Below the pieces are notes generated by a model. The model was not told the DNA's origin. It made no database searches and saw only the letters and a program-made list of their open reading frames with translations. DNA of 58,856 nt from a bacterium (lineage in GTDB: Bacteria > Calescibacteriota > Calescibacteriia > Calescibacteriales > Calescibacteriaceae). The position numbers and the translations under genes were made by a program. Shown in pieces: positions 4,741 to 10,446 of the stretch (its first letter is position 1; each line of letters begins with the position of its first letter). The stretch covers positions 1 to 58,856 of the forward strand of contig JAUQOU010000008.1 in the NCBI GenBank assembly GCA_030550715.1, written 5' to 3'.

Positions 4741-6141
4741 ATGATTTTGGAACTTACAAGAGACCTTGTAAAAGAGCTTTCAAAAATTGAAATCCCCGAA
4801 GATATAAAAAAAGCAGTAGCTTTACAGGTAGAGAACCTGAAACTATCAGCAGAGATAGGAAAAAGAAAGCTCAAATTCTCAGAGGAAAAAGCAGATAAGA
4901 TAGGTATAAAGCCCCCCCTCCTACAGATTCTTATAAATTCATCTGCCTCTATGTTATACGATTGGGATGATTACCTTTTTGCCGGACACACAGGGCACTC
5001 AGCGGTCTTTACCGCACTAGCACTAGGAGAAGAATTCAAAATCCCAGAAGAAAAAATAAAGAGAGCTATCTTTATAGGCAACGAGATAGGAGGAAGATTC
5101 GGAATACTGACTCTGATAGGACCTTTGAACGGACAGATGATGACATACCTTCACGGAATAATATCAGCAACCATCACAGAGTATCTTACAGGAAAAATAG
5201 AGAACATACCCAAAAGAATATGCTCCTACATATCAAATCCACACTTTATACACTTTGAAGGGTTTATGGGAGGGGAAACAAAGCTATTTACCGCATCTTT
5301 CCCGATAGTTCAAGGAGTCATATCATCTCTGTTTGATGTCAAAGAAAATCAATACTCCGAAGAAGGATTTGTGCGTATTTTCTCTTGGAATGATTTTTCA
5401 GAAGACACCATTAAAGCTATTTTCTCTCCCGATTTTTTTCTCACAAGAACACTGATGATAAAAAAGTATCCGGGATGTGCTTATGTTCTTCCACAGATTG
5501 AATGCACCCTCAAAATAAAAAGAAAAATAGAGGAGAATTTTGAGAAATTTGATATAGATTGCATAAGAGAGATTGAGGTAGAGTATTCTATAATACCTGC
5601 TCTGCTTGATGTTATCTCCTCTCGCTATCTTGATTTTTCAAGCCACATTCCAGCTCAGTTCTCAACATACGGAGCTGTAGCACTCGCTCTTTACGGGCAA
5701 AATTTCACCCCGGAAACATACGAGAAAGTTCGCTCACACAAAAACTCCATACTCAAAATAATATCAAAAATAAAGACAAAACACAACACAAAATACACAA
5801 GGAAAATTCTTGAAAAAGTTTCCGATAGCTTCCCTTTTCTTTATGGAGAAAAACCTCCGTCGGTAAAAAACATCTTGAAAGCTATCTCACACTCCCAAAT
5901 AAAAATATCCCACCTTGTGAAGGAAGGAATTTTCATTATCCCCGCGCTGATCGCAAGGAGAACCAAAACAGAGAGAAAAATCAAAGATGAGTTTAAATTT
6001 ATCTTCCCTGCAAAGGTAAAAATTCAATACAAAGACCTTTTACTTGAAGAAGAAGCAATCTCTCACTCAGCCCCTGCAATATCAGAAGATGCAGAAAAAA
6101 ATATTCAAGAGAAAAGAGAAATAGCAAGCAAAAAGGTTTAA
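4741..6141 (+). CDS. MmgE/PrpD family protein
   Basis: DWDDYLFAGHTGHSAVFTALALGEEFKI plus overall length and pattern of the MmgE/PrpD family. Confidence 0.75.
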   Translation: MILELTRDLVKELSKIEIPEDIKKAVALQVENLKLSAEIGKRKLKFSEEKADKIGIKPPLLQILINSSASMLYDWDDYLFAGHTGHSAVFTALALGEEFKIPEEKIKRAIFIGNEIGGRFGILTLIGPLNGQMMTYLHGIISATITEYLTGKIENIPKRICSYISNPHFIHFEGFMGGETKLFTASFPIVQGVISSLFDVKENQYSEEGFVRIFSWNDFSEDTIKAIFSPDFFLTRTLMIKKYPGCAYVLPQIECTLKIKRKIEENFEKFDIDCIREIEVEYSIIPALLDVISSRYLDFSSHIPAQFSTYGAVALALYGQNFTPETYEKVRSHKNSILKIISKIKTKHNTKYTRKILEKVSDSFPFLYGEKPPSVKNILKAISHSQIKISHLVKEGIFIIPALIARRTKTERKIKDEFKFIFPAKVKIQYKDLLLEEEAISHSAPAISEDAEKNIQEKREIASKKV

Positions 6142-6504: not shown

Positions 6505-7866
6505 TCAAAATTCCCTTTTTTTCCTCGCTTTATAAAAGTAATTTCTAAAGCCCTTCCAAACATTCAAAATCCTCAGGGTAAGTTCAACCTTATCTCCGAT
6601 TGAAAACCTTTCTCCGTCTTCAAGTTCTATTCCCTGAACATAAATTCTCGCTCCGTTTTCCGTCCTTACAACAAGCATAGGCAAAGGAGGAAAAACATCA
6701 GCATAAGTTGTAAGATAATCTTCGGTAAATGTGAAAACCTCTCCTTCTCTTGACATTTTCTCTTTTGAAAGATTCTTACTTCCGCAGACCTGACAGTAGA
6801 TTTGAGCAGGAAAAATAGAATTCCCGCAGTCAGAACATCTCAATCCGTAAAGAGAGAGATTTTGCTCTCTTTCTCTCCACAGAAGAGAAATAGATGATTC
6901 ATCTTCTGGGAAACCAATAATATCTTTTACCTTCAGGTAATGGCCAAATCTCATTTTTTTCCTTCTCTCAAAGACCTTTATGATTTCTCTATGAGGCAAG
7001 GAATTTCCTTGAAATGTTAAAATTACACCTTTGACCCCGTTTCCGAGACCCAGAACCGCAACCTTATCTCCCTTTTTCAAGAAACCTGTGGAATAAGCAA
7101 GAGATATAGGTATCTGGGAGTTGCCAAAGCTCCCGAATGCGGAGAAGACATCATCTTTGATTTTAAAAGTTCTCATAACTTGCAAAGCGATACCAAAAGT
7201 CGGAGAAGAGAATACAACTTTGAGGTCAGGCGAAAACACTTTTTTTATCAAAAAAGAATACACTTCTGTTGCGACAAATCTCTCATCTACACATAAGATT
7301 TTTCCATTTTCAGAAGAGATGGCAGGAGTTTCTTCACTTATGTGAAAGAAATCATCTACGGAAAAGATTCCATCTTCGCTTTCCGATGTAGCAGTCATAA
7401 AAATCGCTCCGCCTCCATCGCTGAGACCAAAATCAATATCCCACTCTGCTCCCCTTCTTCTCTCACCAGTAGCAATCAGCACACAATCTGCAAGATGAGA
7501 TTTTAGTAGAGAATAAGCAAGCTCAAAAGCACTTATTATACCCTCTGTACCCCCACCGATTGAAATGGTAGCAGTAGAAACCGGAAGATCAAGAGCTCGT
7601 GAAAGCGTAACAGAAGGATTCTTCTCAAGCCAGTGGTTGAAAGAAGAAGAGACAAAAATAAGAGCTGATCTTTTATCTTTTAAGTAATTGCTGAACTTCT
7701 TTACTATTCTGTAAGACGCTTCATAAGAGAGCGTAAGAGGGTCTTCATCATAAGAGCAGAACGCCTTCTCGTTCGGAGCCCTCACCCCTGCCTGATTCCT
7801 TATCTCCTCACCGCTCAACCTGAAAAAAGGAACATAACCTTCAATATCCTTTATAACTATCTTCAT
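6505..7866 (-). CDS. HMG-CoA synthase/KASIII-like thiolase-fold protein fused to a C-terminal zinc-ribbon/OB-fold (DUF35-like) domain
   Basis: ATGERRRGAEWDIDFGLSDGGGAIFM and GSFGNSQIPISLAYS typical of HMGCS-like proteins; C-terminal CSDCGNSIFPAQIYCQVCGSKNLSKEKMSREGEVFTFT typical of DUF35. Confidence 0.8.
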   Translation of the reverse strand: MKIVIKDIEGYVPFFRLSGEEIRNQAGVRAPNEKAFCSYDEDPLTLSYEASYRIVKKFSNYLKDKRSALIFVSSSFNHWLEKNPSVTLSRALDLPVSTATISIGGGTEGIISAFELAYSLLKSHLADCVLIATGERRRGAEWDIDFGLSDGGGAIFMTATSESEDGIFSVDDFFHISEETPAISSENGKILCVDERFVATEVYSFLIKKVFSPDLKVVFSSPTFGIALQVMRTFKIKDDVFSAFGSFGNSQIPISLAYSTGFLKKGDKVAVLGLGNGVKGVILTFQGNSLPHREIIKVFERRKKMRFGHYLKVKDIIGFPEDESSISLLWREREQNLSLYGLRCSDCGNSIFPAQIYCQVCGSKNLSKEKMSREGEVFTFTEDYLTTYADVFPPLPMLVVRTENGARIYVQGIELEDGERFSIGDKVELTLRILNVWKGFRNYFYKARKKREF

Positions 7867-8908: not shown

Positions 8909-9694
8909 ATGCAATTTGAAGACATAATCTACCAGAAAGATAAAGGGATTGCAACACTGATTATAAACAGACCAGAAGTTCTCAATGCGTTCAGGACAAA
9001 AACAATTGAAGAACTCTCCTCGGCCCTTGAAGACGCAGGGAAAGATAAAAAAATAGGAGTAATAGTGATAAAAGGAGCAGGTGAAAAAGCGTTCTGCGTA
9101 GGAGGAGATATTCAAGAGATGAAAAATTTTGACTACTGGTCTGGAAGAAATTTTCTTTTAAAGTTCCTGAATTTCCTCTTGCTAATAAGAAGAACCCCCA
9201 AGCCAGTAATATGCGCAGTAAAAGGATACTGCCTTGGAGGAGGAAACGAAATAAACATATCTTGCGACCTCACAATAGCAACAGAGGACTCAATCTTCGG
9301 ACAAGTTGGACCAAAGGTTGGCTCAGTACCAGTAATAGGAGGAACCCAATTCCTTCCGAGAATAGTCGGAGAGAAAAAAGCAAGAGAAATGGTTTTCTTA
9401 TGCAATCAGTATTCAGCTTATGAGGCATTAGAGATGGGATTGATAAATAAAGTTGTTCCAAGAGAAAAATTTGATGAGGAAGTAAATTTGTGGTGTCAGA
9501 GGATTTTAGAATTAAGCCCGCAAGCTTTGAGGATAGCCAAACTCTCTTTTAATTTTGAAAGCGACCTACTTTACCCTTCGTTCCTCCATGCGGTTGAAAT
9601 CCTCTCACAAATATATGATACAGAAGAATTCAAAGAAGGTATGAACAGCTTCTTGCAAAAAAGGAAGCCGGACTTCTCAAAATTCAGAAAGTAA
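8909..9694 (+). CDS. Enoyl-CoA hydratase/crotonase family protein, BadI/MenB-like (possible 2-ketocyclohexanecarboxyl-CoA hydrolase)
   Basis: NRPEVLNAFRTKT, GAGEKAFCVGGD, FGQVGPKVGSV, GEKKAREM, C-terminal KRKPDFSKFRK; the GSV and GGGN variants favour BadI over MenB. Confidence 0.85.
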   Translation: MQFEDIIYQKDKGIATLIINRPEVLNAFRTKTIEELSSALEDAGKDKKIGVIVIKGAGEKAFCVGGDIQEMKNFDYWSGRNFLLKFLNFLLLIRRTPKPVICAVKGYCLGGGNEINISCDLTIATEDSIFGQVGPKVGSVPVIGGTQFLPRIVGEKKAREMVFLCNQYSAYEALEMGLINKVVPREKFDEEVNLWCQRILELSPQALRIAKLSFNFESDLLYPSFLHAVEILSQIYDTEEFKEGMNSFLQKRKPDFSKFRK

Positions 9695-9696
9695 TC

Positions 9697-10446
9697 ATGA
9701 TAAGCTTAAAGAACAAAGTAGCAATAGTAACCGGTGGAGCATCAGGAATAGGAAGAGCTATATCAACATTATTTGTCCAACTTTCCGCAAAAGTCGTGAT
9801 AGCAGACATAAATGCAAGAGAGGGAGAAAAATTGTCAAAGGAGATAAACGCTCTATTTGAACATACAGATATAACCCAACTTGAAAGCGTAAGAGAAACT
9901 GCAAAAAAAGTGAAAGAAAAATTAGGGAAAATAGATGTTCTTGTAAACAGCGCTGGATGGGATGAGATAAAACCCTTTTTAGAAACTACGCCAGAATTTT
10001 GGGAAAAAGTAATATCTATAAACTTCAAGGGAGTGATAAATACTACGTATTGTGTTCTGCCCTATATGATAGAAGCGAAAAATGGTGTGATAATTAATAT
10101 ATCATCAGATGCAGGAAGAGTTGGAAGTAGCGGAGAAGCAGTGTATTCAGGTTGCAAAGCCGGAATAATAGGGTTCAGCAAAGCAATAGCAAGAGAGTAT
10201 GCAAAAGATGGGATAAGAGTAAATGTCATCTGTCCTGGACCAACCCGAACACCACTCCTTGAAAGCATTACGAAAGATAAATTGGGAGCAAAAATAATTT
10301 CAGCTATGGAAAAATATATACCTCTGGGGAGATTGGGAAGCCCAGAAGATATAGCGCCAGCAGTAGCATTTCTCGCATCAGATTATGCTTGTTATATAAC
10401 AGGTCAGGTTATAAGCATAAGCGGTGGGCTCACTATGGTCGGGTGA
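9697..10446 (+). CDS. SDR-family oxidoreductase, BadH-like (possible 2-hydroxycyclohexanecarboxyl-CoA dehydrogenase)
   Basis: VTGGASGIGRAI Rossmann motif; YSGCK catalytic motif; NSAGWDEIKPF and ISSDAGRVGSSGEAVYSGCKAG resemble BadH; 2 nt downstream of the BadI-like gene. Confidence 0.87.
   Translation: MISLKNKVAIVTGGASGIGRAISTLFVQLSAKVVIADINAREGEKLSKEINALFEHTDITQLESVRETAKKVKEKLGKIDVLVNSAGWDEIKPFLETTPEFWEKVISINFKGVINTTYCVLPYMIEAKNGVIINISSDAGRVGSSGEAVYSGCKAGIIGFSKAIAREYAKDGIRVNVICPGPTRTPLLESITKDKLGAKIISAMEKYIPLGRLGSPEDIAPAVAFLASDYACYITGQVISISGGLTMVG

Follow-up and report, generated by a model that had tools for sequence, protein, structure and literature searches.

An HMG-CoA-synthase-like/DUF35 fusion protein devoid of catalytic residues is probably a non-catalytic partner of an SCP2-type thiolase

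Results and discussion

A synthase-like gene without a nucleophile

The window, that is, the whole stretch of 58,856 nucleotides analysed here (contig JAUQOU010000008.1 of a bacterium of the Calescibacteriota, assembly GCA_030550715.1), encodes a protein in which a domain resembling HMG-CoA synthase (HMGCS) is joined to a DUF35 domain. An earlier note, made from the sequence alone, remarked that the catalytic Cys and His appear to be missing and proposed that the protein might be a single-chain C-C lyase of the Ltp2/ChsH2 type or a scaffold rather than a condensing enzyme. The question is therefore what such a protein could do, and with which partner.

The fusion at 6505-7866 is as the note described it, with an intact open reading frame, matches for both domains (Table 1) and the quoted motifs exactly in place: TATISIGGGTEGII at residues 98-111, VVFSSPTFGI at 217-226, GSFGNSQIPISLAYS at 245-259 and CSDCG...CQVCG at 344-362. 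Searched against solved structures as a single sequence, it matches DUF35 proteins and, weakly, archaeal HMGCS. By sequence comparison, the best solved match for the N-domain of a profile of the five orthologues of the phylum is archaeal HMGCS (6esq_I, 7.6e-11), and the DUF35 part matches 6esq_E (2.2e-9) and PhlB (5m3k_B, 4.5e-9); with a profile of the whole family, the N-domain matches 6esq_I with 4.7e-56 and the PhlA chains 9skh_A and 5m3k_A with 1.8e-55 and 4.9e-53, respectively. The best N-domain matches are HMGCS, PhlA and KAS III. The C-terminal third matches zf-ChsH2 (3.6e-7) and OB_ChsH2_C (3.9e-5, slightly below the curated cut-off). NCBIfam gave sub-threshold matches only (HMG-CoA synthase and BbsA), the scores against HMG-CoA synthase families being 16.3 bits for TIGR00748 (cut-off 353) and 33.7 for NF003274 (cut-off 244). 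A monomer structure prediction, made from two input sequences, had a mean pLDDT of 28.9.

Table 1 Features of the fusion gene in the window
Feature	Position	Strand	Remarks
HMG-CoA-synthase-like pseudoenzyme/DUF35 fusion gene	6505..7866	-	453 aa, ATG start, no internal stop
N-terminal HMGCS/PhlA-like thiolase-fold domain (res. 1-318)	6913..7866	-	profile matches to 6esq_I and PhlA
C-terminal DUF35 domain (res. 322-453), zinc ribbon + OB fold	6508..6903	-	PF12172, PF01796; 6esq_E, 5m3k_B
Zinc-ribbon ligands Cys344, Cys347, Cys358, Cys361	6784..6837	-	invariant in 13-sequence family alignment
Ser74, at HMGCS catalytic Glu	7645..7647	-	E in 12/13 unfused HMGCS; S in 5/5 phylum orthologues
Thr107, at nucleophilic Cys	7546..7548	-	C in 12/13 unfused, 0/41 fusions; 6esq_I alignment
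Ser220, at catalytic His	7207..7209	-	H in 13/13 unfused, 0/41 fusions; 6esq_I alignment
Ser246, at catalytic Asn (GN of GNTYSGSSP)	7129..7131	-	N in 12/13 unfused, 7/41 fusions

Loss of the catalytic residues

When the phylum profile is aligned to chain I of 6ESQ, Thr107 falls on the cysteine of FACKAG and Ser220, within VVFSSPTFGI, on the His of VFHQP, which bears out the suspected absence of both residues. An alignment of 54 sequences, comprising fusions and unfused bacterial HMGCS, places Cys and His in the same columns and indicates that Glu and Asn have been lost too. Among the 41 full-length fusions neither Cys nor His was found, and Glu is present in one and Asn in seven, compared with nearly complete conservation (Table 1) in the 13 unfused HMGCS, which come from HMGCS-thiolase-DUF35 operons. 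The zinc ribbon is kept, as had been noted, with all four of its Cys. The Asn region, on the other hand, is not: the catalytic column holds Ser246, and Asn249 lies three residues beyond it.

At the Cys position, the four other orthologues of the phylum (identities of 91, 61, 49 and 50%) carry Thr/Ser/Asn/Pro, so that the Cys-bearing orthologues that the note had named as contrary evidence were not found among them. Since these four likewise lack the Cys, a sequencing error can be rejected, and a pseudogene can be rejected as well because dN/dS of the whole gene versus the 91% orthologue is about 0.10, indicative of purifying selection and not of gene decay. An active HMG-CoA synthase was also rejected, all four catalytic residues being replaced (Ser74, Thr107, Ser220, Ser246). 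Judging from its sequence, the fusion is an HMGCS homologue without catalytic residues, and not a condensing enzyme.

The fusion is paired with an intact thiolase

Fusions of about 450-500 residues are present in many lineages of a sample of 290 genomes; further fusion-like sequences were sought in viral contigs and none was found there. Among 37 fusion genes from other phyla, 33 are followed directly, on the same strand, by a gene for an SCP2-type thiolase; of the remaining four, two lie at contig ends, in the third case a thiolase gene follows at a distance of 1.4 kb, and in the fourth the genome encodes a close thiolase at another locus. Every fusion-linked thiolase that was read retains the nucleophilic Cys, and all of them retain HDCF and GHP except two truncated or broken copies (L107, L122), the HDAF/HDSG variants being confined to unfused sets. 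In the five genomes of the phylum the two genes are unlinked, and both are present in all five. The thiolase of the phylum is 56-58% identical to a fusion-linked one and is nested among the fusion-partner thiolases in the tree (node support 0.95-0.96), and in all five genomes it has Cys, HDCF and GHP intact; its representative in the window's genome (G000:C60:1773-2912) is the candidate cognate thiolase. In the window's lineage it is tree placement and co-retention that suggest the pairing. The distances among fusions and among thiolases are correlated (34 pairs, r = 0.68, a value reached by 0 of 2000 permutations), a correlation to which shared species history contributes.

The two proteins are under different constraint. 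Between the window and the 91% orthologue, dN/dS is 0.12 for the N-domain, 0.066 for the DUF35 part, 0.048 for the thiolase and 0.029 for gyrB, and identity of the window's proteins to those of the relatives G001, G003 and G004 is 43-54%, 62-79% and 84-88% for N-domain, DUF35 part and thiolase, respectively. Constraint increasing from the pseudo-synthase through DUF35 to the thiolase would be expected of a system in which the chemistry is left to the thiolase, and the graded divergence, greatest in the N-domain and least in the thiolase, fits the prediction of a scaffold.

Six further fusions, in addition to the 41 aligned, are borne on plasmids; their hosts are Novosphingobium, Rhodococcus, Niveispirillum, Azoarcus, Mycobacterium avium and an archaeon, Halostagnicola. 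All six are without Cys, the one from Halostagnicola retaining the His as an HQ motif. In all six loci the fusion/thiolase pair lies within a CoA-dependent catabolic cluster, with CoA ligases, acyl-CoA dehydrogenases, hydratases and dehydrogenases in the neighbourhood. On the Halostagnicola larsenii plasmid (L144, 6820-9410) the thiolase gene is located upstream of the fusion gene and not downstream. The operons of unfused relatives suggest that the fusion arose from an HMGCS-thiolase-DUF35 set in which synthase activity was lost. In genome G165, the gene for an unfused HMGCS-like protein in which Gly replaces the Cys and the His is kept (L128:3015-4079) lies next to thiolase and DUF35 genes, a set that looks like the PhlACB type.

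Near the fusion gene in the window lie genes for an acyl-CoA dehydrogenase, an MmgE/PrpD-like protein, a crotonase and an SDR, a neighbourhood kept in G002 and absent around the gene in G001, G003 and G004. The operon logic within the window was tried as a guide to the substrate and rendered none, these neighbours not being conserved in the latter three genomes. The 466-aa protein encoded downstream of the acyl-CoA dehydrogenase (4741-6141, forward strand; dN/dS 0.085) has a weak match to the MmgE/PrpD C-domain only and no NCBIfam match. The crotonase and SDR genes, adjacent to each other (8909-10446, forward strand), score best in NCBIfam against BadI and MenB (crotonase) and BadH (SDR), in both cases well under the cut-offs. 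A gene for a mesaconyl-CoA-hydratase-like MaoC protein is found about 3 kb from the fusion gene in G004, and a similar one adjoins the partner thiolase gene in G003 (L032:5179-5712 and L097:4712-5245), which makes a faint link between the unlinked loci.

Comparison with known complexes

The same three components occur in the archaeal HMGCS/thiolase/DUF35 complex (6ESQ), whose chains I and E are the best solved matches for the two domains of the fusion, and whose chain A (2.1e-72) is, along with 7yvy_A (1.9e-72), the best solved match of the partner thiolase. The archaeal HMGCS is, however, a separate and active enzyme with its Cys, whereas its counterpart in the window forms one chain with DUF35 and has none of the four residues Glu, Cys, His and Asn. 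In the acyltransferase PhlACB of Pseudomonas (PpATase; PDB 5M3K), the HMGCS homologue PhlA has neither Cys nor Glu, DUF35 is represented by PhlB, and catalysis is carried out by the thiolase-like PhlC only, in a cavity lined by the three subunits (PMC6392133). By sequence, PhlA is the closest solved relative of the fusion N-domain besides HMGCS. PhlA and PhlB are separate chains, but their counterparts are fused here; moreover, PhlACB functions without added CoA, and the partner thiolase matches PhlC (1.4e-23) far less closely than it does archaeal acetoacetyl-CoA and related CoA thiolases. Fusions of DUF35 to members of the thiolase superfamily, and the active/inactive pair in phlABC, were already noted in the paper on the SSO2064 structure (PMC2954200). 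Benzoylsuccinyl-CoA thiolase BbsAB (PDB 7PXP) also combines DUF35 with an active thiolase, but no HMGCS-like subunit has been reported for it, and BbsA matches the DUF35 half of the fusion weakly (30.5 bits, far under the family cut-off of 250 bits).

The best reading is that the fusion unites PhlA and PhlB in a single polypeptide and has a PhlC-like thiolase as its partner. We consider it probable that it is the non-catalytic partner of the SCP2-type thiolase whose gene lies at another locus of the genome, the two forming a complex with a CoA site that carries out thiolysis; the physical complex, its binding of CoA, its reaction and its substrate are what we infer from these comparisons. By analogy with the archaeal complex and PhlACB, DUF35 would tie the thiolase to the pseudo-synthase domain and make the CoA site complete, while the pseudo-synthase would give the acyl cavity beside the thiolase active site its shape. 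Thiolysis of a 3-oxoacyl-CoA (or a Claisen condensation) would fall to the Cys/His of the thiolase, presumably in a degradative, beta-oxidation-like pathway. Degradative thiolysis is more likely than Friedel-Crafts acylation because the partner is closest to archaeal CoA thiolases and because of the catabolic neighbourhoods on plasmids. The scaffold alternative raised in the note would thereby be favoured, given the loss of the four catalytic residues and the pairing of the family with an intact thiolase; as for its "single-chain version", the fusion of both parts stands, but the stand-alone role does not, the thiolase being the likely catalytic partner.

Other possible roles

A single-chain retro-aldolase or C-C lyase of the Ltp2-ChsH2 or Sal-Shy type is the least probable of the roles considered. 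The DUF35 domain does come from the family of ChsH2, the Cys is replaced in the fusion, and those systems also combine a thiolase fold and DUF35 with a repurposed active site. Their Cys-less subunit, however, is of the SCP2-thiolase type and carries a Tyr-containing YDHF/YDCY motif, described as catalytic (PMC12329534), whereas the N-domain of the fusion is HMGCS/PhlA-like without any YD[HC][FY], and the equivalent of Ltp2 is the separate thiolase, usually encoded next to the fusion, which bears HDCF and the Cys. Both kinds of pair coexist in Novosphingobium sp. ES2-1, where the fusion/thiolase pair adjoins a pair formed by a lipid-transfer protein (YDAF) and a DUF35 protein in one cluster, and therefore they represent two systems.

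It is also unlikely, if less so, that the pseudo-synthase has been retooled as a different enzyme that uses Ser73-75, Ser220, Thr223 and Asn249 and acts alone or feeds the thiolase. These residues are invariant in the five orthologues in spite of N-domain divergence to about 43% identity, and the invariance of Ser74, Ser220 and Asn249 in the window's lineage leaves some probability to a pocket function, whether retained or new; but they are not common to other fusions and they lie in the least constrained of the three parts. Nor does it seem at all probable that the fusion of this phylum has left the thiolase for some other partner, for instance a second, conserved Cys-less thiolase-like protein encoded in the genome. 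Linkage of fusion and thiolase genes in none of the five genomes would agree with such a change; yet the cognate thiolase is strongly conserved in all five and nested among fusion partners, and a stand-alone DUF35 protein of the genome could serve the second thiolase-like protein.

Implications for the family

Public records label members of this family as HMG-CoA synthase, OB-fold protein or KAS III, and such labelling suggests a biosynthetic step that is impossible without the catalytic residues. For EGO55_13555, the "HMG-CoA synthase" of the estrogen-degradation (edc) cluster of Novosphingobium tardaugens, the authors assigned no step and doubted a condensation (PMC7793797). Compared by gene order alone, the surroundings of EGO55_13555 agree with those of the fusion gene in ES2-1, and on this basis the fusion family includes it. 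If these proteins are read as thiolase subunits, genes of estrogen, aromatic and other catabolic clusters acquire a role that can be tested, and their co-expression with the neighbouring thiolase is predicted. More tentatively, there may be a widespread, undescribed class of degradative thiolases that depends on a dedicated fused pseudo-synthase/DUF35 subunit, the dead site of which would have turned into a pocket that confers specificity, or into a new site of catalysis, for acyl-CoAs that are bulky or unusual.

The second thiolase-like protein of the window's genome (L100:6600-7721; G000:C4:46606-47637), conserved in the relatives at loci L056 and L060, has NIDGAFG in place of VENxCATG and MECF in place of HDCF, and lacks GHP. 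From its sequence, it is a truer candidate for a non-thiolytic enzyme of the thiolase fold.
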